Source of the DNA: Cupriavidus sp. AU9028
Lineage (GTDB): Bacteria; Pseudomonadota; Gammaproteobacteria; Burkholderiales; Burkholderiaceae
Length of the DNA stretch: 64,000 bases
NCBI RefSeq assembly: GCF_019795295.1
Contig: NZ_JAIMCG010000005.1
Span: forward strand, 186,001-250,000
Direction: 5' to 3'
Positions 4,945 through 37,022 of the stretch are shown here, in pieces; positions within the stretch are counted from its first letter, which is position 1; each line of letters opens with the position of its first letter. The translations under genes and the position numbers were made by a program. Below the pieces are notes generated by a model. It was not told where the DNA came from. It ran no database searches and saw nothing but the letters and a program-made list of their open reading frames with translations.

Positions 4945-5874
4945 ATGGCCGAAACCCGCCAGCTCACGGTCTATTCACCGGTGCTGACACCGTTCGATCG
5001 GCGCTATGCCCCGGCAACCGACCGCTTCGTGCGGCACTGCCGCTGGCTGGCGGACCAGGGAGTGGGGCTCGCCGTGTTCGGCACCAACTCCGAGGCCAAC
5101 TCGATGTCGGTGGCGGAGAAGCAGGGCTTGCTGGACGCGCTGCTCGAGGCCGGCGTCTCGCCGTCGATGCTGATGCCGGGCACCGGCGCCTGCGCGCTGC
5201 CCGACGCGGTCGCACTGACGCGGCATGCGGTACGCGCGGGTTGCCAGAACGTGCTGATGCTGCCGCCGTTCTACTACAAGGGCGTCAGCGACGAAGGGCT
5301 GTTCCGCGCGTTTGCCGAGGTGATCGAACAGGTCGGTGACGGCGCGCTGCGCGTCTACCTCTATCACATCCCGCCGGTGAGCCAGGTGCCGCTCAGCCTT
5401 GCGCTGATCGAGCGGCTGCTCGATGCATTCCCGGGCGTGGTCGCCGGTGTCAAGGACAGCTCGGGAGACTGGAGCAATACGAGCGCGATGATCGAGCGCT
5501 TCGGGCCGCGCGGTTTTCGCGTGATGGCCGGAACGGAAACGCTGCTGCTCGATACGCTGCGCGCCAACGGGGCCGGCTGCATTACCGCCACCGCCAACGT
5601 CAATCCGGGGCCGATCGTCGCGCTCGCGCAGAACTGGCGCAGCGAGGATGCGGATGCGCAGCAAGCCGCGCTGAACCGCACGCGCGCCGCGTTCCAGCAG
5701 TATCCGATGATCGCCGCGATGAAGGAGGCCATCGCCGAGCATAGCGGCGACGATGCCTGGCGCACGGTGCGCCCACCGCTGACCGAACTGGACCCGGCGC
5801 AGCGCAAGGGCCTGCACGATGCGCTGGCGGCGCTGGACTTCCGCATGCCGGGCGCGCAGCAGCTGCGCGGATAG
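4945..5874 (+). CDS. Dihydrodipicolinate synthase/N-acetylneuraminate lyase family protein
   Basis: 309 residues, class I aldolase TIM barrel. The Schiff-base lysine is Lys170 in VAGVKDSSGDW, the catalytic tyrosine lies in LYHIPP (about residue 140), and GTNSE at 46-50 replaces the usual GTTGE substrate loop. GAGGAGA lies 7 bases before the ATG. Enzymes of this family near IlvD/Edd and UxaA proteins cleave or dehydrate 2-keto-3-deoxy sugar acids, so a catabolic role fits better than lysine synthesis. First gene of the segment controlled by the divergent LysR. Confidence 0.88.
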   Translation: MAETRQLTVYSPVLTPFDRRYAPATDRFVRHCRWLADQGVGLAVFGTNSEANSMSVAEKQGLLDALLEAGVSPSMLMPGTGACALPDAVALTRHAVRAGCQNVLMLPPFYYKGVSDEGLFRAFAEVIEQVGDGALRVYLYHIPPVSQVPLSLALIERLLDAFPGVVAGVKDSSGDWSNTSAMIERFGPRGFRVMAGTETLLLDTLRANGAGCITATANVNPGPIVALAQNWRSEDADAQQAALNRTRAAFQQYPMIAAMKEAIAEHSGDDAWRTVRPPLTELDPAQRKGLHDALAALDFRMPGAQQLRG

Positions 5875-5984
5875 CGCCTCGCTCGGCGTCGTGCCGGCCG
5901 TTGCAGCGCGTTGGGTCGTCAGGCAGTGCCGCCGGGCCCAGGCCCGCGCAAACCACACAAATACAACCGTAGAGGAGACTCCCC

Positions 5985-6992
5985 ATGACATCGCATCGCA
6001 CCCATTCCCGCGTGCGCCGTACCCTGCTGCGCGGCGGCATGCTGGCAGTCGCCGCCCTTGCCGCGACCGGCGCACTGCCGCCGGCGCACGCCGACAACTA
6101 TCCGAGCAAGCCGATCCGCATCGTGGTGGGCTTTGCACCCGGCGGAGGCGCGGACATCGTCGCGCGGCAGATCGGCGCCCGCCTGCAGCAGCAGATGGGC
6201 CAGCCGGTGGTGGTGGAGAACCGCCCTGGCGCGACCGGCACCATCGCGGCGGCGAACGTCGCGCAGTCGCCCGGCGACGGCTATTCGATGATGCTCGCTT
6301 CGCAATCGACGATGGTGATCGCGCCAAGCATGTACGCCAAGCTGCCGTTCGATCCGCTCAAGGACTTTCTGCCGGTGACGCAGATGGTGTCGATGCCGCT
6401 GGTGATGGTGGTGCATCCGTCGGTGCCCGCCGCCACGGTGCAGGAGGTGGTCGCGCTGGCCAAGGGCGGCAAGATCGCCAGCTATGCGTCCTCGGGCGCG
6501 GGCGGTCCGCAGCATATCGCCGGCGAGGTGTTCAAGAGCATGAGCGAGGTCAAGCTGACCCACATTCCCTACAAGGGAGAGTCGGCGGCCCTGACCGACG
6601 TGATGTCCGGCACGGTGCCGCTGATGTTCGCCAACCTGCCGGTGGTCGCGCCGATGATCAAGTCGGGCAAGCTCAAGGCGATCGCGGTATCGAGCCTGGA
6701 GCGCGCGCCGGGCCTGCCGCAGCTTCCCACCGTTGCGGAGGCGGGCCTGAAGAACTTCGAGGTGTTGACCTGGTACGGGCTGTTCGCGCCGGCCAGCACG
6801 CCGCGCCCGGTCGCCAAGCGGATCAGCGACGAGGTGCAGCAGGCGCTCAAGACGCCCGACATGCAGGCAAAGTTCGCCGAGCAGGGACTGACCATCGTCG
6901 GCACCAATCCCGAGCAGTTCGGCAAGTTCATGACCGCCGAGGTGCCCAAGTGGGCCCAGGTGGTCAAGTCGGCGGGCATCCAGCCGGAGTGA
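5985..6992 (+). CDS. Bug/TctC-family tripartite tricarboxylate transporter substrate receptor
   Basis: 335 residues. Signal peptide with RRTLLRGG followed by a hydrophobic stretch, cleavage near AHA/DNYPSKP. Family motifs: IRIVVGFAPGGGADI, VVVENRPGATGT and IPYKGESAALTDV. GAGGAGA lies upstream of the ATG. It sits between the DapA-like and UxaA-type genes (gaps of 110 and 79 bases), so it is probably co-transcribed and delivers the substrate of this pathway. Second of three Bug receptors in the window. Again no membrane components lie beside it. Confidence 0.93.
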   Translation: MTSHRTHSRVRRTLLRGGMLAVAALAATGALPPAHADNYPSKPIRIVVGFAPGGGADIVARQIGARLQQQMGQPVVVENRPGATGTIAAANVAQSPGDGYSMMLASQSTMVIAPSMYAKLPFDPLKDFLPVTQMVSMPLVMVVHPSVPAATVQEVVALAKGGKIASYASSGAGGPQHIAGEVFKSMSEVKLTHIPYKGESAALTDVMSGTVPLMFANLPVVAPMIKSGKLKAIAVSSLERAPGLPQLPTVAEAGLKNFEVLTWYGLFAPASTPRPVAKRISDEVQQALKTPDMQAKFAEQGLTIVGTNPEQFGKFMTAEVPKWAQVVKSAGIQPE

Positions 6993-22246: not shown

Positions 22247-23842
22247 TTACCCGCGTTCGTCCGCCTCCGGCAGTTGTCCACTCTCCACCACCGCCAGCAG
22301 CATCTGCAGTTTGGGCAGCTCTACCGGCTTGACGATATGGAAGGCGAAGCCGGCGGCCTTGCTCTCCGCACGGTCGCCCGGCTGGCCAAAACCGGTCATC
22401 GCGGCGTAGACGGTGTGCTGCCACTCCGGCAGCGCGCGCAAGCCCCGCAGCAGGGCGAAGCCGTCGACCATCGGCATCGCCAGGTCCAGCAGGGCGAGAT
22501 CGGGCACGAAGTCGCTGGAGCGCTCCATCGCTTCCTCGGCATCGTAGGCCACGCGCACATCGTGTCCCAGCACCTGCAACAGCATGCCCAGGCTGTCGGC
22601 CGAATCGCGGTTGTCGTCGACCACCAGCACGCGCAGCTGGCGCGTGGCCTCCGGCACCCGCGTGTCTCTCGCTTCTTCCGCCGGCGCCAGCCCCAGCGGC
22701 AGCCGCACCGTGAAGGTGGCGCCCATCCCTTCGCCGGCACTGCTGGCCCGGATGCTGCCGCCATGCAGTTCCACCAGCGACCGGCACAACGACAGGCCGA
22801 TGCCAAGGCCGCCTTCCTCCGACACCTTGGCGCCGGCCTTGCTCTGGAAGAACAGGTCGAAGACGTTCTCCAGGTCCTCCGCCGCGATGCCGCGCCCTTC
22901 GTCCCGCACGCGCAGCTCCAGCGCCTGCGCTTCCAGCTGGCAGGACACCTCGATCCGGCTGGCCGGGGGCGAGAACTTGGAGGAGTTCAGCAGCAGGTTC
23001 TGCAAGACCTGGATCAGCCGGATCGAGTCGGCCCGCAGCACGACTGGCATCGGCGGCAGTCGCAGGTCCAGTTGCTGCCGCCGACGGTCCAGCGACGGGC
23101 GCGCCGACTCCACCGCGCGCGCCACGATGTCCGACAGCTCGACGCGGCTCAGTTGCAGCTCGACCTTGCCCGAGGTGATTCGTCCCATATCCAGCAGGTC
23201 GTCCACCAGCCGCGTCAGGTGCGTCAACTGGCGGTCCAGCACCGCCTGGCAGTGGCTCAGCGTCGTGCTGGCCGCGCTGCCCACCGCCACGCCTTCCAGC
23301 CGCATCAGGTTGACGGCGTTGCGCATCGGCGCGATCGGATTGCGCAGTTCATGCGACAGCGTGGCCAGGAACTGGCTCATGCGGCGGCTCGACTCTTCGA
23401 GTTCCTGCAGCCGTTTGCGCTCGCTCATGTCCCGGGTCACCTTGGCGAACCCTTCGAGATTGCGATGCTCGTCGTACAGCGCGGTAATGATGACGTTGGC
23501 CCAGAACAGCGTGCCGTCCTTGCGCACGCGCCAGCCCTCGTCCTCGAAGCGCCCGATCTTTGCCGCCTGCTCGAGTTCGAATTCCGGCCAGCCGCGAGCG
23601 ACGGCATCCGGCGTGTAGAAGCAGGAAAAATGGCGCCCGATGATCTCGTGGGCGGCATAGCCCTTGATCTTGCCCACGCCGCGGTTCCAGCTGGTCACAT
23701 TGCCGCGGGGGTCGAGCGTGAAGATGGCGTAGTCCTGGATGGCCTCGACAAGCATCTGATAGCGGCTTTCGAGGCGTGCACCGGTGTCCGTCTGCGCGGG
23801 TCTTGCCGGTGCCCCCCGTGCGGGGGTGGGGGTGGATGGCAT
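22247..23842 (-). CDS. PAS-domain hybrid sensor histidine kinase
   Basis: 531 residues, cytoplasmic (no membrane segment). PAS domain about 25-140 with a PAC motif (FAKVTRDMSERKRLQ), HisKA with the phospho-His in ATLSHELRNP (about residue 165), HATPase with NLLLNSSKF, DEGRGIA and GLGIGLSLCRSLV, and a C-terminal receiver with phospho-Asp in LALLDLAMP (about 454). The PAS core resembles light/redox-type PAS (DYAIFTLDPRG, IIGRHFSCFY) but lacks an obvious flavin-cysteine motif. No output regulator is adjacent. The ATG at 23842 follows GGAAG. Confidence 0.92.
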   Translation of the reverse strand: MPSTPTPARGAPARPAQTDTGARLESRYQMLVEAIQDYAIFTLDPRGNVTSWNRGVGKIKGYAAHEIIGRHFSCFYTPDAVARGWPEFELEQAAKIGRFEDEGWRVRKDGTLFWANVIITALYDEHRNLEGFAKVTRDMSERKRLQELEESSRRMSQFLATLSHELRNPIAPMRNAVNLMRLEGVAVGSAASTTLSHCQAVLDRQLTHLTRLVDDLLDMGRITSGKVELQLSRVELSDIVARAVESARPSLDRRRQQLDLRLPPMPVVLRADSIRLIQVLQNLLLNSSKFSPPASRIEVSCQLEAQALELRVRDEGRGIAAEDLENVFDLFFQSKAGAKVSEEGGLGIGLSLCRSLVELHGGSIRASSAGEGMGATFTVRLPLGLAPAEEARDTRVPEATRQLRVLVVDDNRDSADSLGMLLQVLGHDVRVAYDAEEAMERSSDFVPDLALLDLAMPMVDGFALLRGLRALPEWQHTVYAAMTGFGQPGDRAESKAAGFAFHIVKPVELPKLQMLLAVVESGQLPEADERG

Positions 23843-23933
23843 GGCATTCGCTTCCGCTTGAAGATGTCGGAAGAATACAACTAATGCACATTGCCCGGCC
23901 ACCCTGCAATGGCCGCAAGGGCCACATTGCGGG

Positions 23934-23959
23934 AAAAAAGCCCCGTCAAGGACGGGGCT
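23934..23959 (-). terminator. Rho-independent terminator downstream of the TTC38-like gene
   Basis: On the minus strand AGCCCCGTC, loop CTT, GACGGGGCT, then TTTTT: a perfect 9-bp stem with a T-run about 100 bases after the TTC38-like stop and before the PAS kinase gene. It makes the TTC38-like gene a separate transcript. Confidence 0.88.
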
Positions 23960-24058
23960 GCGAGTTGCAAACCGCGGGGCGGCGCCGCATCCGGTCCCTG
24001 GCCGAAGCACTCGGGGAGGGAGCTCGACAAGGCGCGACCCCCGTGTTGGCGATGCCGC

Positions 24059-25450
24059 TCAGGCGGCCCGCTGCACGGCTGCCACCGGCGAGGTGCGCTG
24101 CTCTGCCGCCTCCAGGTCGTCTTCGATCGCCAGCGCCCGCACCCGCTGGGCCAGCCGATGCAGGCTCGGATTCATCGGCTTGAGCTCCGTCCGCTCGGCG
24201 GCGAGCGCCTGGGCCAGCCGGGTGTTGCCACCCCGCAACGCCGCCTCGATCAGGGTCAGGTTCAGCACGTCGCGCTGGGCATGGCTGCCGCCAAAGCGCT
24301 GCGCGATCAGCCGGGTCGCGCCGAGCAACTCGATGACGCGATCGTAATCGCGCGCCTCGTAGGCGATCAGCGCTTCCACCACCGGCAGGCCGACGTCGCG
24401 CGACATTGCCGCGTTCGCGCCGCTGCCGCGCGCCGCCCGCTCCATCGCCGCGACCAGCCGGGCGAACGCCGCCGGCCGGTCATCCCCCAGGTAGGCCATC
24501 GCCGCGTGGACATCGTTGAAGGCGTACTGCCCCTCGGCGCCGCGCGCCTCCCAGGTGTCGGCCAGCTCCTTCCAGCGGTCCCCGACATCGACGCCGCGCA
24601 AGCAGAGCCGCCACAGCATCGCACTGGCGTCGATCACATCCAGCGCGACGGCCGAATGGCCCGAGCGGATCCGCTCGTCGTACAGGGCCAGCACGCGCTC
24701 CGTGTCGCAACGCTCGAGGTGGAACAGCGTCAGGTGCCACCAGTTGTGCACGGCCATCATGTTGTCCTGCGACCAGTCCGCGGCGCGTGCCTGCAGCCAT
24801 TCGATGCCGTCATCGGTGCGGCCCTGCATCTCCATCACATGCGCGACGGCATGGATGGCCCAGGGGTCGCGCGCATTGATTTCCAGCGCGAAGCGGCCGC
24901 GCTCTTCCGCCTGCTCGTACAGGAAGGTCTCTTCCAGACCGAAGGCATGCATGCCGAGCACATGGCTGAAGCCCGGCACCGCGGCATTCCAGTGCGGCAG
25001 CACCTGGGCGACGCGATCGCGCAGCATGCTGGACTGGCCGAGGAAAAAGTCGGTCAGATGAGCGACCTGGATCGCCAGCAGGTCGCGCGGGTAATCGACC
25101 ACGATCTGTCCATACAGGCGATTGGCGCGGCAGAAGTCGCCCTCCAGCCAGGCACGGGCGGCGGCCAGATGGCGCTGCTCGCGCTCGTTGGCGCGCCCCA
25201 GGTGCGCGTCCGCCTGCTCCAGCGCCTGGCGCAGCATCGGCATCACGGCGCCGTCCCCGGCGGTGACCAGTAGTCCGGCTCGCATGGCGTGGCCCATCAT
25301 GAAGTCCGGCTCTTCGGCGAGCGCGTTTTCGATCAGCGTCAGGGGGTCGCCGTAATAGCCGTTGAACAGCTCGAGCGCCGCGTCGTAGCGCTCGATCGAC
25401 CGGCTGTTGCCGGACGAGACCTTCAGATGCCGTGCGTCGGTGTGTTCCAT
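24059..25450 (-). CDS. TTC38-family tetratricopeptide repeat protein
   Basis: 463 residues, close to the length of animal TTC38. It opens as the family does (RYDAALELFNGYYGDPLTLIENALAEEPDFMMGHAMRAGLL) and contains typical TTC38 pieces: HLTDFFLGQSSMLRDR, HVLGMHAFGLEE, AIHAVAHVMEMQGR and HNWWHLTLFHLE. The His-rich conserved positions (HVMEMQGR, HNWWHL) are a family mark. No enzymatic activity is established for the family to my knowledge. Start MEHTDARH with GGAAGA upstream. It is divergent from a 1372-residue BTAD regulator, with 310 bases between them, and has its own terminator. Confidence 0.85.
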   Translation of the reverse strand: MEHTDARHLKVSSGNSRSIERYDAALELFNGYYGDPLTLIENALAEEPDFMMGHAMRAGLLVTAGDGAVMPMLRQALEQADAHLGRANEREQRHLAAARAWLEGDFCRANRLYGQIVVDYPRDLLAIQVAHLTDFFLGQSSMLRDRVAQVLPHWNAAVPGFSHVLGMHAFGLEETFLYEQAEERGRFALEINARDPWAIHAVAHVMEMQGRTDDGIEWLQARAADWSQDNMMAVHNWWHLTLFHLERCDTERVLALYDERIRSGHSAVALDVIDASAMLWRLCLRGVDVGDRWKELADTWEARGAEGQYAFNDVHAAMAYLGDDRPAAFARLVAAMERAARGSGANAAMSRDVGLPVVEALIAYEARDYDRVIELLGATRLIAQRFGGSHAQRDVLNLTLIEAALRGGNTRLAQALAAERTELKPMNPSLHRLAQRVRALAIEDDLEAAEQRTSPVAAVQRAA

Positions 25451-25561
25451 GATGTCTTCCTTGGTCGAGGCGGATACAACGGACCTGGAATGCCAGGCCC
25501 TTGCCGGTGAAACCGGTAAGGCCAAGCGTAGGAAGGGGCTGTGAAGGGTCCGTGCGGCGCG

Positions 25562-25583
25562 GCGTGAAAGAAGCGTGAAAGTT
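25562..25583. promoter_or_regulatory. Direct repeats GCGTGAAAG with 11-bp period in the TTC38/BTAD intergenic region
   Basis: GCGTGAAAGAA is followed at once by GCGTGAAAGTT. Related GTGAA elements lie at 25541, 25600 and 25507. Direct heptamer-like repeats spaced one helical turn are the recognised binding layout of SARP/BTAD-type winged-helix activators, and a BTAD protein is encoded next to them. Confidence 0.6.
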
Positions 25584-25760
25584 GGGCCGCTCGCGCGGCG
25601 TGAATGCGCGATTCGTTTCCGAATTGCCGCGCTGCGTCGTCTATAACGACTATCTGGACAGCTGCGCGGCAGTTTGCGCGAAAGCGCGCGCCCGCACGGG
25701 CACTGGCCGTACGGCAGTGCTCCCACCGCAAGTACCAAAGCCCCCAGGGGCGCTCTGGCC

Positions 25761-28700
25761 ATGGCGGACATTCGTCTCGATTTGCTGGGCGGCTTCGCGT
25801 TGCGCTCGCCAAGCGGAGACGCCATCACGCTTTCCGCGCGCAAGGCGCGCGCGGTGCTGGCCTATCTTGCGCTCACCGCGGGCAGGCCCCAGCCGCGTGA
25901 CAAACTCGCCGCCCTGCTGTGGGCCGACAGCAACGCCGAGCAGGCACGTTCCAGCCTGCGCCAGGCGCTCAGTGCGATTCGGCGCGCGGCAGGCGCCGAG
26001 GTGCTGTCGATCGCCGAAGGCGACCGCGTCCTGTTGTCGGGGATTACCGCCGATGTGGTCCTGTTCGAGACGCATCTGCGCGGCAACGACGCCACCGCGC
26101 TGCAGGCCGCGGCCGATCTCTATCGGGGTGACCTGCTCGACGGCTTCGACGCCGGTTCGCCCGCCTTCGACCAGTGGCTCACCATCGAGCGGGAGCGCTT
26201 GCGCGCCCTGGCCGGCGGGTTGCTGGAGCGCCTGGTGGAAGCGCACCGCGCCGCGGGCGACCTGGAGCGCGCGGTCGCCTGTGCGGTGCGTCTGCTGGCG
26301 ATGGATCCGCTGCGCGAGCCGGTCCACCGGGCGCTGATGCGCCTGTACCAGCGGCAGGGCAGGCAGGCGTCGGCGCTCAAGCAGTACCGGATCTGCCGTG
26401 CGGTGCTGCAACGGGAGCTGGGTGTCTCCCCCGAGCCGGAGACCGATGCGCTGTATCAGTCGCTACTGCGCAGCCGGCGTGCAGGTGAACCGGTCGATGG
26501 CACCGCACTGGGCGACGAGGAGGGCGAGGCCGCCGAGCCGGTCCCCGGTGTCCTGGGTACGCCGGCCGGTACGGCGACGGCGGCTCCCGCCTCAGGCGCC
26601 GCTGGGCCGCAGCCGCTTGCACCGGGCACGGACAGCGCCTCCTCGCCGCCTCCGGCTACGGTGCCCGCCGCCATGCCGGATCGGGCAGCGCAGGCAGGGG
26701 ACGCCACGGCACGCCCGTCGCCGGCCGCGATGCCCGCCCCGGGTCCCGAGCTTCGCCACGCGGTGGTCGTCGTCGCCGAAGTCGACCTTGCCAGTGCCTC
26801 GATGGAGTCGCCCGGCACCGGCATGCTGGACCCGGAGCAGATGCACGAGGTGCTGGTGCGATGGCGTGACCATGGGCACGCCCTGGCTGCCAGCTGCGGC
26901 GGCCATGTCACCGATGCTCTCGGGGCGCGTTTGACCGTGGTATTGGGCGTGCCCGTGGCCCACGGCAACGATGCCGAGCGCGCCCTGCACGTGGCCACCG
27001 CCCTGCACGGCGGGCTGGAGGCGCTCTGCCCGCGGTGCGCCGCGCCGGTGCGCGCGCGCGTGGGGGTGGCCAGCGGGCAGGTGCTGTCGGCCAGCGCATC
27101 GGGGGGCAGCATGACGCTGACCGGCGCCCCGGTCGCCGTGGCCGCGCGGGTAATGGAGCACGCGCAGCCGGGGCAAACGGTGGTATCCAACCGCGTGTAT
27201 CTCGCGCTGCCGGGCCGGCTCGATGCCAGCCATCTGACCGACCTGGTCATGCTGGGAATTCCGGAGCCGATTCCGCTATGGGCGGTGCGCCGCTTTCTGG
27301 ACCCCGCGGAAACCGCGCCCCAGCACGCCTTTGTCGGCCGCAGCGCGGAGCTGGTGCAGTTGGCCGGGGTTGCCGGCGACTGTCTGCGCACGCGGCAGGG
27401 GCGCGTGGTGGTGATCCGGGGCGAGGCCGGCATCGGCAAGAGCCGGCTGGCCGAGCGGTTCCTGGCGCTGGCGCGCGAGCACGGCATGGACGCGCTGCGT
27501 GCGCTGGTGCTCGACTTTGGCGTGGACCGCGCCGGCGATCCGCTGCGCATGCTGATGGCCAACCTGTTCGGCGTCGCCGCGAATGCGGGGGCCGACGCGC
27601 TGTCGCAAGCCGTGTCGCAGGCCGTGGCGGCGGGAAGGCTCGCGGACGAGGACGAGGCGTTCGCCCGCGACCTGCTCGACATTCCCTGCACCCCCGCGCA
27701 GGCGGCGGCGCTTGCGGCGATGGAGCCGGCGGTGCGCCAGCAGGGCGCGCAGCGCTGCCTGGTATCGCTGGCCACGCAACGCAGCGAGCGCAAGGCGCTG
27801 CTGATCGTGGTCGAAGACGTGCACTGGGCCGAGCGGGCCTTGCTTGCCTGCCTCGCGCGGCTGGCCGGCGCCACGCGCACCTGCCCGCTGGTGCTGGCGC
27901 TGACCGTGCGTCCGGAACAGGATCTGCTGGACAGCGCCTGGCGCGCCGCCACCGGCAATGCGTCGCTGACCACCATCGACCTGGGTCCGCTGAACGAACA
28001 CGAGGCGCGGGAGCTGGCGACGCGCTACCGGCATGTGGGTCCCCTGCTGGCACACTCCTGCATCCGGCGGGCGGAAGGCAATCCGCTCTTTCTGGACCAG
28101 CTGCTGCGCAATGCGGAAAGCGGGTCGGACGCCGACGCGCTGCCGGGCAGCCTGCAGAGCATCGTGCTGGCGCGGCTCGATCGTCTGCCGGAGGAGCACC
28201 GGCTGGCGCTGCAGGCCGCCGCGGTGCTGGGGCAGCGCTTCTCGCCCGCCGCGCTGCGCTATCTGCTCGGGCGCTCGGATGATCCTTGCGATGCGCTGGT
28301 GCGCCAGGCCATGGTGCGGCCCGAGGGCGAGGATTTCCTGTTCATGCACGCGCTGATTCACGAGGCCGTCTATGCCTCGCTGCTCAAGTCGCGCCGGCTC
28401 TCGCTGCATCGCCGGGCGGCCGACTGGTACCGGTCCCGCGATCCCGCGCTGCACGCCGAGCATCTCGAAGCGGCCGGCGATGCCGACGCGGCGCGCGCCT
28501 ACGAGGCCGCCGCGCGGCACGAGGCCACGCACTTCCGCAACGAGCGGGCGCTGCGGCTGGTCGAGCGGGCGCTGCAGCTGGTGGAAAAGGCGCCCGACGA
28601 CCGCGTGCGCCAATCGCTGGACTGCCTGCGCGGCGAACTGATGCTGGACCTGGGCCAGCCCGCCGACGCGCTGGACGCCTTTCGCCAGGCGGTGGCGCTC

Positions 28701-29879
28701 GCCGCCGACGATAGCCAGCAGGCGCGCGCCTGGTTTGGCGTGGCCGCCTCGCTGCGGCTGCTGGATCGGTACCAGGAAGCGCTGAGCGCGCTGGAACACG
28801 CGCATCGGGCGGCGTTGGCCACCGGCACCGACGAGATGCTGGCCCAGATCGAATCGTTGCGCGGCAACGTGCATTTCCCCATGGGCAATATGGAAGCGTG
28901 CCTGGCGGCCCACCAGAAGGCCCTGCATCACGCGGCGGCCGCCCATTCCGCACTGGGGGAAGTGCGGGCGCTCGGTGGGCTGGGGGACGCCTCGTACCAG
29001 CAGGGCCGGATGGTGACGGCGCGCGAGCAGTTTGCCCGCTGCGTCGCGCTGGCGCGGCAACAGGGGTTTGTGCGCATCGAAGGCGCCAACCTGCCGATGG
29101 TGGCCGTGGTGGACCTGATGTGCCATGCCTTGCCGCAGGCGCACGAGAACTGCGAGGCGGCCTTGCGCATCGCCCACCGGATCGGCGACACGCGCATCGA
29201 GGTGCTGGCGCTGGACGTGATGGCCTCCACCGCGCAGCTGAGCGGCGATTTCGCCGCGGTATTGCGCCACACCGAGCAGGGCCTGGCGGTCGCGCGCCGG
29301 CTCGGCGCCCGGCGCTTCGAGGCGGAGCTGCTGGGCAGGCGCGCGCTGGCGCTGGCGAAGCTGCGCGCGGATGGCCAGGCGCCTGCCAGTCCCGGGCCCG
29401 AGGTGGACCGCATGCTGGCCGAGGCGATGGCGTTGAGCCATGCCACGGGCCTGCGCTATTCGGGACCCATGATTCTCGGCTTTCTGGCCCGGATCACTCC
29501 CGACCCGGACCGCCAGCGTGCCGCCATCGAGGAGGGCGAGCGCATCCTGGCGCAGGGCTGCGTCAGCCACTGCCACCTGGACCTGTACGAGGCGGAAATC
29601 GAGGTGGCATTGCAGGCCGGCGATTGGGAGGCCGCCGAGCGCGCTGCCAATGCGCTACGCGACTACATGGCGGCCGAGCCGTTCCCCTGGGGCAGTTTTC
29701 ATGTGCGGCGCGCGCAGTTGCTGGCAGCGCTTGGACGGGACGAGCGGGCGGGCCGCCCTGCGGGGCAGCCGCGCCTGGCGCAATTGCGGGCACTGCGGGC
29801 CGAGGGCGCGCAGGCGGGGCTGCACGACGCCCTGGGCCGCATCGACGCCGTCTTGCGGCGGTTCGGGGCGGCGGCCTGA
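25761..29879 (+). CDS. BTAD-domain regulator with degenerate cyclase domain, AAA/STAND ATPase and TPR region
   Basis: 1372 residues. In order: SARP-type winged helix (about 1-95, IRLDLLGGFALRSPSGD), BTAD helices (about 100-240), Ala/Pro-rich linker (250-330), class III cyclase-like domain (331-520), STAND ATPase with Walker A GEAGIGKSRLAE near 554 and Walker B LLIVVEDVHWAE near 683, then a long TPR region to the end. In the cyclase-like part the second metal Asp is replaced (LGARLTVVLG where GD is expected) and the VN-AAR asparagine is Ala (PVAVAARV), so it should be catalytically inactive. Architecture resembles AfsR/MalT-type ligand-gated activators, unusual for a betaproteobacterium. Start ATG 25761 follows AGGGG; the upstream TTG extension looks non-coding. 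Confidence 0.88.
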   Translation: MADIRLDLLGGFALRSPSGDAITLSARKARAVLAYLALTAGRPQPRDKLAALLWADSNAEQARSSLRQALSAIRRAAGAEVLSIAEGDRVLLSGITADVVLFETHLRGNDATALQAAADLYRGDLLDGFDAGSPAFDQWLTIERERLRALAGGLLERLVEAHRAAGDLERAVACAVRLLAMDPLREPVHRALMRLYQRQGRQASALKQYRICRAVLQRELGVSPEPETDALYQSLLRSRRAGEPVDGTALGDEEGEAAEPVPGVLGTPAGTATAAPASGAAGPQPLAPGTDSASSPPPATVPAAMPDRAAQAGDATARPSPAAMPAPGPELRHAVVVVAEVDLASASMESPGTGMLDPEQMHEVLVRWRDHGHALAASCGGHVTDALGARLTVVLGVPVAHGNDAERALHVATALHGGLEALCPRCAAPVRARVGVASGQVLSASASGGSMTLTGAPVAVAARVMEHAQPGQTVVSNRVYLALPGRLDASHLTDLVMLGIPEPIPLWAVRRFLDPAETAPQHAFVGRSAELVQLAGVAGDCLRTRQGRVVVIRGEAGIGKSRLAERFLALAREHGMDALRALVLDFGVDRAGDPLRMLMANLFGVAANAGADALSQAVSQAVAAGRLADEDEAFARDLLDIPCTPAQAAALAAMEPAVRQQGAQRCLVSLATQRSERKALLIVVEDVHWAERALLACLARLAGATRTCPLVLALTVRPEQDLLDSAWRAATGNASLTTIDLGPLNEHEARELATRYRHVGPLLAHSCIRRAEGNPLFLDQLLRNAESGSDADALPGSLQSIVLARLDRLPEEHRLALQAAAVLGQRFSPAALRYLLGRSDDPCDALVRQAMVRPEGEDFLFMHALIHEAVYASLLKSRRLSLHRRAADWYRSRDPALHAEHLEAAGDADAARAYEAAARHEATHFRNERALRLVERALQLVEKAPDDRVRQSLDCLRGELMLDLGQPADALDAFRQAVALAADDSQQARAWFGVAASLRLLDRYQEALSALEHAHRAALATGTDEMLAQIESLRGNVHFPMGNMEACLAAHQKALHHAAAAHSALGEVRALGGLGDASYQQGRMVTAREQFARCVALARQQGFVRIEGANLPMVAVVDLMCHALPQAHENCEAALRIAHRIGDTRIEVLALDVMASTAQLSGDFAAVLRHTEQGLAVARRLGARRFEAELLGRRALALAKLRADGQAPASPGPEVDRMLAEAMALSHATGLRYSGPMILGFLARITPDPDRQRAAIEEGERILAQGCVSHCHLDLYEAEIEVALQAGDWEAAERAANALRDYMAAEPFPWGSFHVRRAQLLAALGRDERAGRPAGQPRLAQLRALRAEGAQAGLHDALGRIDAVLRRFGAAA

Positions 29880-29925
29880 GACCGTGGGGGCGGCATACAG
29901 GCGCGCCGCGCCCGACCCGCCTCGG

Positions 29926-30177
29926 TCAGCTGCGGCGCCTGACCATCCCGTAGATCGCCAGCAGCACAATCGCGCCGATCACCGAGGCGATCCAGCCGGC
30001 TGGCTCTCCGGGGCGATACCAGCCCAGCGCCTGGCCGACATAGCCGGCAACCAGCGAGCCGCCGATACCGAGCAGGATCGTCAGGATCCAGCCCATCTTG
30101 TCGTCGCCGGGCTTGATGGCGCGGGCAATCAGGCCAACGATGAGGCCGACGAGGATCGTACCGAGGAATGACAGCAT
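29926..30177 (-). CDS. GlsB/YeaQ/YmgE-family stress-response membrane protein
   Basis: 83 residues with three hydrophobic segments: FLGTILVGLIVGLIAR, WILTILLGIGGSLVAGYVG and WIASVIGAIVLLAIYG; the KPGDDKMG turn is typical. An AGGAG lies 9 bases before this ATG (3 bases before an alternative ATG at 30183). Small inner-membrane protein of the transglycosylase-associated family with no fixed biochemical role. Convergent with the BTAD regulator. Confidence 0.9.
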   Translation of the reverse strand: MLSFLGTILVGLIVGLIARAIKPGDDKMGWILTILLGIGGSLVAGYVGQALGWYRPGEPAGWIASVIGAIVLLAIYGMVRRRS

Positions 30178-30462
30178 AAGCATCTTCTCCTGCAGTTGAC
30201 TACGGTTGGCAAGGGTAGGGCCGGGGGCGTGTGCCGCGGTGCTGCCATCTTGCCATGGCATGCTCCGGCTCGCGAGTCCCCGGCGCCGCTTCCCGCTTCA
30301 GCAAATTTGAAGCCAGCATGCAATTGCCGGACGCGCAGGAACCGCCGGGGGCTGGCAAACTGGCGGTCCTTTCAACCGTTTCCCTGGAACGTGTCCCGCC
30401 ATGGGTACCCGCGCTTGCCGCCGCGTACCAGCCTCGTATCCCGAGCGGGACCGGAGATCGAC

Positions 30463-33749: not shown

Positions 33750-36700
33750 TCAGTGGGTGCACGCCAGCGGCGCGGGCCCGGCCTGCGGGTTCATCGCCAC
33801 CACTGTCGGCGCCAGCGCGCGCAGCAGCCGTACCGACAGGGCGCTGGTGAAGCTGTAGCGCGCCGCCTGCGGTCCGCGCACGTGCAGCGTCACCGTGCCG
33901 AAGTAGCGCTCGCCGATGACGAAGACGAAGGTGGCCGACCGGCTGACTGCCCGGGAGGCGATGACATAGCCGCCGCGGCCGAACACCATGTGCCGGTGGT
34001 CGCCCGTGCCGGTCTTGCCGCCCAGCGCCATGCCGAGCTCGGCCGGGAAGGCGCCGGACGCCGAGCGGGCGGTGCCGCCCTCCACCACGTCGAGCATCGA
34101 GCGCCGCGCGAGCGCCGCCACGTCCGCATCCAGCAGCCGCTTGCCCTCGCGCGGCTGCAGGCGGAAGCGCGTTTCGTAGGGCGTGCCCACGGCAAAGTCA
34201 AGTTCGCGGATCGTCTCGGTGTACGGTTGCACGCCGCCGTTGAGCACGATGCCCGCCAGCTCCGCCAGTGCCGCCGGGCGGTCGCCCGACGCGCCGACGG
34301 CGGAACCGTACGACGGCGTCAGCGATTCAAAGGGGTAGCCGAGCCGGCGCCAGCGCTCGCCGATCCGCACGAAGGCATCGCGCTCGAGCAGGATGCGGAT
34401 GCGGTTGTCCTGCCCCGCCTTGCTGCGCGTGCGGAACAGCCAGCTGTAGACCTCCTGCCGCACGTCCTTGCTGTCGGCCAGCGCCTGGTCCAGCGTCGCC
34501 TCCGGATGGAGGTTCAGATAGTCGAGCAGCCACAGCTCGAGAGGGTGGATGCGCGACAGGTAACCGCGGTCGTTCAACGAGAATTTGTCCCGGCCGTATT
34601 TGTCGTACAGCTCCAGCACCTCGCCTTCGTCCAGGGCCGACGACGCCGGCTTGCCCAGCTTCGCGCGCAGATGGCGGGCGAAGGTCTGCTCGTCCATCTG
34701 CGGATCGGCGCTGCGCAGCACCACCGCGATCCGTACCGCCACCGGCCGCACCCGCTCGAGCAGCAGGGCGATCCGACCGTCCTTGTCCAGCGGGCGATAT
34801 TTGCGATAGAAGCTGGTCAGGAACTGGCTGCCTTCCTCGTCGGCGAATCGCACCAGCCATTCCCGCCGCCCTGGGGCGTCGCGCTCGGCCAGCAGCTCGG
34901 CGGCGTTGGGCACCTCGCGATGGACTTCGTAGCGGACGATGTCCCGCATCATCCGGATGAAGACGAGGTTGACCGAATGCTGGAACGCGCGGCGTACCGT
35001 CATCGGTTCGACCTTGGCCGAGCGGTCGAAATTGGAGAACGTCTGCAGACCGCCGCCGGTGAAGAACGCCTCGCCGGCGCCCGCGGCATACTTGCGCTCC
35101 ATTGCCGCTTCGAGCAGCGCCGCGCGGGACAGGTCCGGCTGCGCGATCAGCTGATCGGCGACCCAGCGGCGCAGCGCATCGGTCGGCGCCACCGGCAGTG
35201 CCCGCAGCTGCGCCGTCGTCATGGCCGAGAGCTGCTGGTGCAGTTCCGCGATGATCTCCAGATAGGTGATCATGGTGCGCAGCTTGGCGGTCGAGCCCAG
35301 GTTCAGCCGGGCGCCGCTGTTCAGGTCGAAGGGCTGGTCGATATTGTCGGCCTGGATCCGCAGGTAGCTGGCATTGCCCACCCGCTCGAACAGTGTGAAG
35401 CTGGCCGCCAGGCGCGAGGGATCGTCGCCCTCGTTCAGCATGTTCTTGCCGTACAGACCAAGTTCGCGCGCGGCGTCCTTGTCGCGCAGCCGCATCAGCG
35501 TATCGGTGACCAGGCGTTGCGCCTGCGTATTGATGGTGCTGGAGACGGTCAGGTCGAGCCGGTCCAGGTCGTAGCGGCTGCCCACGCCCAGCATCCGCGA
35601 CAGGTCGGCGCGCACCTGGTTGACCGCCTTGCGGGTCACGAAGGGGTCGGGCGGCGGCAGCGTCGGCACCGGCGCCTTGTCCAGCCGCGCCGCCAGCGCG
35701 GCGTCGCGCAATGACGTCGAGATGACCCCGGCCGAGGCGAGCAAACGCAGGTAGCTGTCCGTCAGCGGCTCGAGATTGGTGTCGTAACGGCGCAGATGGT
35801 AGGACGGCCGGCGCTGCGCGATGATCAGCGACAGCGCCTGCTTGTAGACCTGCGCCTGGCGCGGATCGAGCGTCGTGCCGGGGGTGCGGCGCGTCACGGC
35901 CTGCGCCGCGTTGGTCGGGGCATCGGGCATCACCGCCTGTGCAACGGTGCGCAACCCCTCCGTCTGGCCCGGACGCAAGCCGCTTTCCACCGCCTCCTGC
36001 ATGCCCTTCGGCATGCCCTCGCGGATGGGGTGGGGCGGCTCGTCCTGCAAGGCGTCGTGCGGGCCGAGGTCGCCATGACCGAGCTGGCGCAGCAGCCGGT
36101 TTGCCGTGTCGAAATCCTCGCCGTACCAGTAGTACATGCCGTCGCCGATGCCGTGGATCTCGCCATGGCCGTTACGGGCCGACAGCGGCACGGTATTCAG
36201 GTACTCGGTGACGATGCGCTCGCGGGCACGGCTGGTATCGGGCCCGTCGCGATAGGCGCGCACCGATGCGGAGACCATCTGGCGCAGCTTCTCTTCGACC
36301 GAGGACGTGCGTCCATTGGGCGAGTGCCGGTACTTCTCGATCTGCGTGGCGAGGGTGCTGCCGCCCGGTGTCTCGCGATTGCGGTCCACCACGCTCAACA
36401 CCTGATCGAGTCCGGCCCGCCCGAGCCGGCGCCAGTCCAGTGCCGGATTCCGCGTGGGGTATTCGGGATCGAGCAGCCCCTGATTCTCGACGAACAGCAG
36501 CGAGCGCGCGATCACCGGCGGCACGTCGGCGAAGTCGCGGTAATGCCGCTCGGGGAAGCGTTGCACCGACACGCTGTCGCCATGGCAATCGAGCAGGGCG
36601 AGGCCGGCGCGGGTCTTTTCCGCATAGGGCGGATACAGGCCGCGGTCCAGATAATCGAGCAGGGCGTCGGACATGCGGACCTGATGCACGCGCACAAAGC

Positions 36701-37022
36701 CGCGCGCTTCCAGCATCTCGGTGTAGTGCGGCAGGCGTGCATAGCCCATCCGCATGTCATAGGGACCGGCATCCGGGAAGCGGATACGGTCGCTCGGGCC
36801 GGCAGCGGTCTGCCAGGTCAGCCGTTGGCTCCATTCCCAGAAGTAGCGCGATTGCCAGCGCGAGGTGCGCAGTTCCTCGGCGACCAGATGGGCGGCGAAA
36901 TAGCAAACGGAGCCCACCAGAGCCACCAGCAGAAGGATGGGCCAGATTCGTCGTGGCACGGTTCGAAGCACGATGCAGTTGGTCGATCGGATACGTAAAT
37001 CGAAACGCGAGTGAAGCGTCAT
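33750..37022 (-). CDS. Large class A penicillin-binding protein (GT51 transglycosylase plus transpeptidase)
   Basis: 1090 residues, clearly longer than usual class A PBPs. One N-terminal membrane helix (about 26-47), then GT51: LLFVENQGLLDP near 177 (catalytic Glu region) and GGSTLATQIEKYRHS near 224 with the following EEKLRQM. The transpeptidase has the STAK nucleophile motif near 576 and KTGTG near 1001. The GT51-transpeptidase spacing and the long inserted region between STAK and KTG differ from PBP1a/1b. It polymerises and cross-links peptidoglycan in the periplasm. Divergent from a cytochrome c gene. Confidence 0.88.
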   Translation of the reverse strand: MTLHSRFDLRIRSTNCIVLRTVPRRIWPILLLVALVGSVCYFAAHLVAEELRTSRWQSRYFWEWSQRLTWQTAAGPSDRIRFPDAGPYDMRMGYARLPHYTEMLEARGFVRVHQVRMSDALLDYLDRGLYPPYAEKTRAGLALLDCHGDSVSVQRFPERHYRDFADVPPVIARSLLFVENQGLLDPEYPTRNPALDWRRLGRAGLDQVLSVVDRNRETPGGSTLATQIEKYRHSPNGRTSSVEEKLRQMVSASVRAYRDGPDTSRARERIVTEYLNTVPLSARNGHGEIHGIGDGMYYWYGEDFDTANRLLRQLGHGDLGPHDALQDEPPHPIREGMPKGMQEAVESGLRPGQTEGLRTVAQAVMPDAPTNAAQAVTRRTPGTTLDPRQAQVYKQALSLIIAQRRPSYHLRRYDTNLEPLTDSYLRLLASAGVISTSLRDAALAARLDKAPVPTLPPPDPFVTRKAVNQVRADLSRMLGVGSRYDLDRLDLTVSSTINTQAQRLVTDTLMRLRDKDAARELGLYGKNMLNEGDDPSRLAASFTLFERVGNASYLRIQADNIDQPFDLNSGARLNLGSTAKLRTMITYLEIIAELHQQLSAMTTAQLRALPVAPTDALRRWVADQLIAQPDLSRAALLEAAMERKYAAGAGEAFFTGGGLQTFSNFDRSAKVEPMTVRRAFQHSVNLVFIRMMRDIVRYEVHREVPNAAELLAERDAPGRREWLVRFADEEGSQFLTSFYRKYRPLDKDGRIALLLERVRPVAVRIAVVLRSADPQMDEQTFARHLRAKLGKPASSALDEGEVLELYDKYGRDKFSLNDRGYLSRIHPLELWLLDYLNLHPEATLDQALADSKDVRQEVYSWLFRTRSKAGQDNRIRILLERDAFVRIGERWRRLGYPFESLTPSYGSAVGASGDRPAALAELAGIVLNGGVQPYTETIRELDFAVGTPYETRFRLQPREGKRLLDADVAALARRSMLDVVEGGTARSASGAFPAELGMALGGKTGTGDHRHMVFGRGGYVIASRAVSRSATFVFVIGERYFGTVTLHVRGPQAARYSFTSALSVRLLRALAPTVVAMNPQAGPAPLACTH

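Follow-up and report, generated by a model that had tools for sequence, protein, structure and literature searches.

A SARP-type regulator with a degenerate cyclase domain, apparently wired to a single TTC38-like gene in Cupriavidus sp. AU9028

The window analysed here is a stretch of 64,000 nucleotides from Cupriavidus sp. AU9028 (contig NZ_JAIMCG010000005.1, positions 186,001 to 250,000), and all positions are counted from its first letter. Two divergent genes are considered. The plus-strand gene encodes a regulator, P0001, composed of a SARP module (winged helix and BTAD), a pseudo-cyclase domain, a STAND ATPase and a TPR region; the minus-strand gene encodes a TPR-type protein, P0002. The latter is called TTC38-like throughout, a presumed family label which was produced by no tool. 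The genes and the parts of their products are as follows.

25761..29879, plus strand: regulator P0001 (SARP/pseudo-cyclase/STAND ATPase/TPR), 1372 amino acids, ATG at 25761
25761..26495, plus strand: SARP DNA-binding module, residues 1-245 (BTAD 111-236)
26745..27299, plus strand: class III cyclase-fold domain, residues 329-513
27330..28460, plus strand: STAND/AAA_16 ATPase region, residues 524-900
27420..27443, plus strand: Walker A, residues 554-561, GEAGIGKS (Skermanella: GEPGIGKT), in 15/15 aligned regulators
27798..27827, plus strand: Walker B, residues 680-689, LLIVVEDVHW, in 15/15 aligned regulators, with changes
28461..29876, plus strand: TPR region of the regulator, residues 901-1372
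24059..25450, minus strand: TTC38-like TPR-type protein P0002, 463 amino acids, ATG at 25450
24734..24931, minus strand: putative metal or active site stretch coding for E174, H200, H204, H235, W238 and H239, invariant in 70 aligned sequences

The first-pass annotation had described a single gene of 1372 residues joining SARP winged helix, BTAD, cyclase-like, STAND and TPR parts opposite a TPR-type gene, and the domain anatomy bore this out. In the domain profile search BTAD matched with 96.5 bits, AAA_16 with 49.8 bits and TPR_12 with 52.1 bits; the Trans_reg_C match alone scored under the cut-off. Residues 17-238 matched AfsR chain 8hvr_I with an E value of 3.4e-9, and the EmbR match had an E value of 7.1e-10. 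The two ATPase motifs are those which we take to be Walker A and Walker B. A winged helix with BTAD, then a Walker A/B ATPase, then a TPR region is the domain order of the large SARPs, and it was found in the regulator. As the structure model had pLDDT (predicted local distance difference test) values below 50 across most of residues 1-100, nothing is claimed on the winged helix from that model. The SARP module was the best-kept part between Cupriavidus and Skermanella, with 54% identity, followed by the AAA region with 46-47% and the TPR region with 40%. A LuxR-type helix-turn-helix gave no match in the regulator at E values up to 1. Assignment to the MalT/LuxR-type STAND regulators was rejected, as there was no C-terminal LuxR helix-turn-helix and the MalT-like TPR match fell short of its cut-off (17 against 45 bits). 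A role in antiphage defence was also discarded, PADLOC having given only a generic TPR model for P0001.

Residues 329-513 of the regulator have the cyclase homology fold. Both metal-binding Asp positions are replaced in 15/15 aligned regulators: at what we take to be the ADI-type position Asp has given way to Glu, Ser or Ala, and at the presumed GDA-type position Asp is also replaced. Judged by its sequence, the domain is a pseudo-cyclase, with the fold kept and the metal residues gone; in this it differs from the class III adenylyl and guanylyl cyclases CyaB, CyaC and Cya2. The TOMM kinase/cyclase fusion TIGR03903 likewise has a cyclase-like domain followed by an ATPase and aligns with residues 330-951 (E 1.1e-41), but the regulator has a SARP module in place of the kinase. 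Membership in TIGR03903 was rejected, as the score of 142.8 bits is below the cut-off (705.75) and there was no kinase match.

Neither Pfam, NCBIfam nor PADLOC held a model naming P0002, and no solved chain matched it by sequence below E 0.5. Its length, TPR-like fold and motifs would fit a TTC38/StaR-like protein. TPR superhelices usually act as binding scaffolds, and their inner face is lined by the A helices. Residues D123, E174, H200, H204, H235, W238, H239, G387, S389, Q392 and R406 were invariant in an alignment of 70 distinct sequences with identities as low as 25%. When helices were assigned to A and B by simple alternation, 17 of the 18 helix residues conserved to at least 97% were on A helices (191 positions) and one on a B helix (149 positions); six more residues conserved to this degree sit outside helices. 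Two HxxxH motifs lie on consecutive A helices and a Glu on the A helix before them. Together these look like a metal site, which suggests that the TTC38-like protein may be a metalloenzyme. The alternative is that it is a scaffold binding a ligand or protein without catalysis, still under the control of the regulator. As a TPR superhelix it would then do what such folds generally do, and its metal site is a candidate taken from the sequence; yet the invariance of the Asp, Glu and four His residues and their place on the A helices speak against a mere scaffold. Panobinostat is a metal-binding hydroxamate. If the TTC38 label holds, two reports on the human protein also count against the scaffold: in three proteome-wide studies TTC38 appears as an off-target or interactor of panobinostat (PMC6885700, PMC7666118, PMC9118197), and in a further study potentially damaging TTC38 variants are associated with higher urine metabolite X-22162, with an effect of 0.76 (PMC7878905). 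Both would fit an enzyme. Another study gives a missense association at a locus named TTC38/PKDREJ (PMC5780481), so that PKDREJ is a rival gene for it. The scaffold must be considered a serious possibility, with a chance not far short of even.

The following elements were located between the two genes.

25574..25580, minus strand: SARP box unit 1, TTTCACG
25563..25569, minus strand: SARP box unit 2, TTTCACG, 11 bp on
25551..25557, minus strand: SARP box unit 3, degenerate CCGCACG, 12 bp on
25540..25546, minus strand: SARP box unit 4, CTTCACA, 11 bp on, 9 nt ahead of the -10
25525..25530, minus strand: predicted -10 of the TTC38-like gene, TACGCT, from conservation
25642..25647, plus strand: predicted -10 of the regulator gene, TATAAC, from conservation

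Upstream regions of TTC38-like genes were aligned gap-free from the first TTTCACG, and exact duplicates were dropped. The resulting 19 distinct promoters were from Cupriavidus (15, window included), Skermanella (2), Plasticicumulans (1) and an uncultured member of the Kiloniellaceae, alphaproteobacteria (1). All had a common gap-free layout of TTTCACG-type units at 11-12-11 bp, followed by 9 nt and TA. The TA was present at this position in 19/19 promoters and TAnnnT in 18/19, compared with 0/19 for TAnnnT at the 13 other offsets tested. Mean matches to TTTCACG were 5.5/7 for unit 4 and just 3.4/7 for unit 3, which is therefore weak. In the other 73 TTC38-like upstream regions the two-unit core scored 10/14 at most; 10 of these box-less loci have less than 5 kb of flank on one side, and the 73 include L053, almost without upstream sequence, and L054, with an uncertain start. 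The sequence CTATAA was found before the regulator in 15/15 Cupriavidus regions, at distances from the box of 39, 60, 72-73 or 160 nt. As the distance from the box to the -10 on the TTC38 side is fixed and that to the regulator -10 varies, the box belongs to the promoter of the TTC38-like gene.

According to a paper on AfsR, the repeats of SARP promoters are 11 or 22 bp apart, the 3' repeat is 8 bp from the -10, and the afs box lies at -40 to -19 (PMC10936776). The repeats found here, at about 11 and 22 bp near the -10 of the target, are one base off this rule in two places. The earlier suggestion of repeats with the spacing used by BTAD activators thus holds nearly to the base, in spacing as well as in distance to the -10, with the TTC38-like gene as the target.

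The co-occurrence of box and regulator was determined by tblastn, a SARP relative being defined as a match to regulator residues 1-250 at E up to 0.001. Box and SARP relative were found together in 17 fetched loci and in the window, and 73 loci had neither. One locus had the box without a SARP relative (Kiloniellaceae, L050), and none had a SARP relative without the box. A SARP gene was therefore in the locus for 18/19 box promoters versus 0/73 of the other TTC38-like loci.

A genome search showed that the pair is conserved beyond this strain. Of 60 Cupriavidus genomes, 15 were confirmed to carry the divergent pair. The TTC38-side box was present in 15/60, exactly in 13 and with one mismatch in 2; 12 of these genomes had already been identified as carrying pairs, and the remaining three, once fetched, proved to have them as well (genomes of L022, L026 and L027). 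In the other 45 genomes the pair was sought via the box, and in some also via protein and BTAD searches. TTC38-like matches at E up to 0.001 were obtained in 31/60 relatives, own genome counted, and BTAD matches in 33/60 by the BTAD family search. The closest TTC38-like orthologue always had a divergent SARP regulator beside it (15/15 distinct Cupriavidus loci examined, window included). Named loci at 68-76% identity were from C. gilardii, C. cauae, C. respiraculi, C. necator A5-1 and others. Cupriavidus also has a second, less closely related TTC38-like paralogue, which at its 17 loci (60-68% identical) had neither box nor SARP neighbour. Some TTC38-like genes missed by the simple gene finder were placed by tblastn.

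Outside the genus the arrangement was different. In Skermanella rosea and S. mucosa (alphaproteobacteria) a single gene separates the TTC38-like gene from a convergent SARP regulator; in S. rosea this intervening gene encodes a TPR protein. In Plasticicumulans (gammaproteobacteria) the gene immediately downstream of the TTC38-like one is convergent and encodes a SARP-TPR protein of 652 amino acids, in which neither a cyclase nor an ATPase match was found. The cyclase-like insert, to which the first-pass annotation had drawn attention, is thus present in the window's regulator, with its metal residues gone, but is not essential to the arrangement. In a sample of the phylum, TTC38-like matches at 1e-60 were found in 25/398 genomes at 27 places; neither a SARP relative nor the box was present at any of the 20 places fetched.

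In the window's assembly, which is 94.56% complete, a search allowing one mismatch found the box at the TTC38-like promoter and nowhere else, and a wide regulon was rejected on this count. The same genome has one BTAD match only. The 60 Cupriavidus genomes contain 17 exact boxes, 13 of them at a TTC38-like promoter; the other four (L212-L215) are without the layout. The off-promoter boxes inspected in Cupriavidus were the exact ones. In a class-level scan boxes were found in 174/369 genomes, and a reversed-pattern control was common too, so that single boxes elsewhere are mostly due to chance. At one of the four off-promoter sites (L214:5018) three tandem 11-bp TTTCACGGCTA-type repeats lie at the 3' end of a gene which by eye reads as LysR-like (5042-6043, minus strand). 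No TTC38-like match was found in the Cupriavidus genome that carries them (G006).

In a tree of 52 of the fetched TTC38-like proteins, made by a quick method, the box label needs four changes, of which at least three are forced. The Plasticicumulans and Kiloniellaceae proteins are in a different part of this tree from those of Cupriavidus and Skermanella. In a tree of 31 SARP modules, Cupriavidus and Skermanella group with moderate support (80/70). A Kiloniellaceae SARP (frame of 1358 amino acids) is near these modules, and the Plasticicumulans module is outside the group; long branches leave the rest of the tree unsure.

The neighbours of TTC38-like genes were also surveyed. The divergent upstream neighbour was scanned at 15 loci (14 of 40 listed, and L050) and was of the AraC-cupin type in three (L031, L035, L150), of the TetR type in three (L033, L094, L160) and of other kinds in nine. 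A local regulator thus accompanies the TTC38-like gene in some cases, and the type of regulator is exchangeable. Among the neighbours scanned no common gene context was found; FGGY kinase, MMPL, MlaA, thiolase, D-serine-dehydratase-like and other genes vary between loci. Possibly, and we put this forward tentatively, the family consists of metal-dependent TPR-superhelix enzymes which consume a small metabolite and whose gene is switched on by dedicated one-component regulators captured from at least three families (SARP-STAND, AraC-cupin and TetR).

The predicted regulatory link to the TTC38-like gene is well supported by this comparative evidence, and it is probable that the regulator is a dedicated local activator of essentially one promoter, that of the divergent gene. 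Several observations weigh against this. At 12 bp, the middle spacing gives 23 over two turns where the rule has 22, and the -10 follows after 9 where the rule has 8. Most promoters have a degenerate unit 3, and those of Skermanella a degenerate unit 4. The -10s have weak hexamers and are assigned from conservation, a sigma-70 consensus scan of 23900-30300 having given no promoter. The promoter sample, in which 15/19 come from one genus, amounts to about four lineages; a Fisher value for the co-occurrence of box and SARP takes no account of relatedness and carries no weight here. Finally, the Kiloniellaceae box has no SARP gene within 8 kb; that genome has four BTAD matches, the tree-nearest of them on another contig, and the 19.9 kb fetched from around this regulator gave no TTC38-like gene by tblastn. 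Regulation in trans is assumed there, as no SARP gene is near the box.

The first-pass annotation had proposed a signalling pair of equals. In such a pair the TTC38-like protein would bind the regulator or its ligand and set its activity in the manner of Rap proteins, and the shared promoter would merely balance both. The evidence indicates instead a regulator with a single target gene; the AraC-cupin and TetR neighbours elsewhere and the enzyme-like conservation also disagree with a signalling pair, which is accordingly unlikely. A still less probable reading makes the TTC38-like gene a bystander: the box would serve autoregulation at the regulator's promoter, or another SARP protein. It gains from the position of the Cupriavidus box between both genes and from the absence of a regulator from the Kiloniellaceae locus. 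However, the box keeps its distance only to the TTC38-side -10, it stands before the TTC38-like gene even in Skermanella and Plasticicumulans, where the regulators are not divergent, and the window's genome offers a single BTAD match. It is very improbable indeed that the neighbours have no regulatory link and were kept by chance or joint transfer: gene order is often conserved inside a genus and the pair was confirmed in only a quarter of the Cupriavidus genomes (15/60), but the promoter layout is common to three proteobacterial classes and to tree-separated TTC38-like sub-lineages.

With the regulator as a dedicated activator, we infer the following mechanism. As long as no ligand or partner has been sensed, the protein would probably be restrained by its own STAND ATPase, pseudo-cyclase and TPR domains. 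Upon sensing, its SARP modules would bind the four half-sites, strongly at units 1 and 2 and weakly at units 3 and 4. With the first T of the -10 set at -12, the weak pair falls at about -39 and -28, where the afs box lies, and the strong pair further upstream. From there the proximal protomers could bring polymerase to a promoter that has no recognised -35. The TTC38-like protein so induced would most likely act as the effector; it is probably an enzyme whose active site, conserved and rich in His, would lie on the inner, A-helix side of the superhelix.

SARP regulators are known mainly as actinomycete antibiotic activators. The present system shares with AfsR of Streptomyces coelicolor and other large SARPs the winged helix with BTAD, the ATPase (NOD) and the TPR region, as well as direct repeats spaced by one or two helical turns, the last of them just before a weak -10. 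It differs in being proteobacterial, in the pseudo-cyclase between SARP and ATPase, in the four half-sites at 11-12-11, and in a target which is apparently the single TTC38-like gene, compared with afsS or antibiotic genes. It seems to be a SARP whose cyclase domain has degenerated and which, along with relatives in three proteobacterial classes, is wired to one gene only, a member of a conserved family. For the TTC38 family, the human member included, we know of no function, and among the titles listed in a literature search none concerned a bacterial TTC38 relative or this pair. As a dedicated activator marks when a protein is needed, the trigger of the regulator should indicate the substrate or stress handled by the TTC38-like protein, and the recurrence of the control site in other bacterial classes makes the function of this protein testable. 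If it is a metal enzyme, the SARP-linked pair would be a native single-target reporter for finding the family's substrate; if human TTC38 is indeed related, as presumed, the published drug off-target and the human metabolite association would also become easier to explain.

One further element was located past the stop codon of the TTC38-like gene.

23939..23959, minus strand: terminator-like hairpin, nine pairs followed by a T run, from a consensus scan

With this hairpin the TTC38-like gene would be a single transcription unit; the scan of the region found 5 sites against 1.9 expected. Directly downstream of the gene is a PAS/histidine kinase/response regulator hybrid gene (window 22247-24010, minus strand), with the hairpin near the junction. 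A gene of this type also follows the TTC38-like gene in L024 and L026, and in Skermanella a histidine kinase gene is just upstream at the TTC38-like locus. The second Cupriavidus paralogue adjoins MMPL, MlaA and FKBP-type genes at L077:1809-5940. In L155 the TTC38-like gene is followed by an FGGY sugar kinase, and in L151-L154 and L156-L158 by a gene of similar length. A Sinorhizobium terangae plasmid protein (L117:7968-10076) has a SARP/BTAD module fused to an alpha/beta hydrolase domain; the L117 locus gave no TTC38-like match. Elsewhere in the window, an open frame of 1090 amino acids (33750-37022, minus strand) reads, from its translation, like a transglycosylase/penicillin-binding protein.

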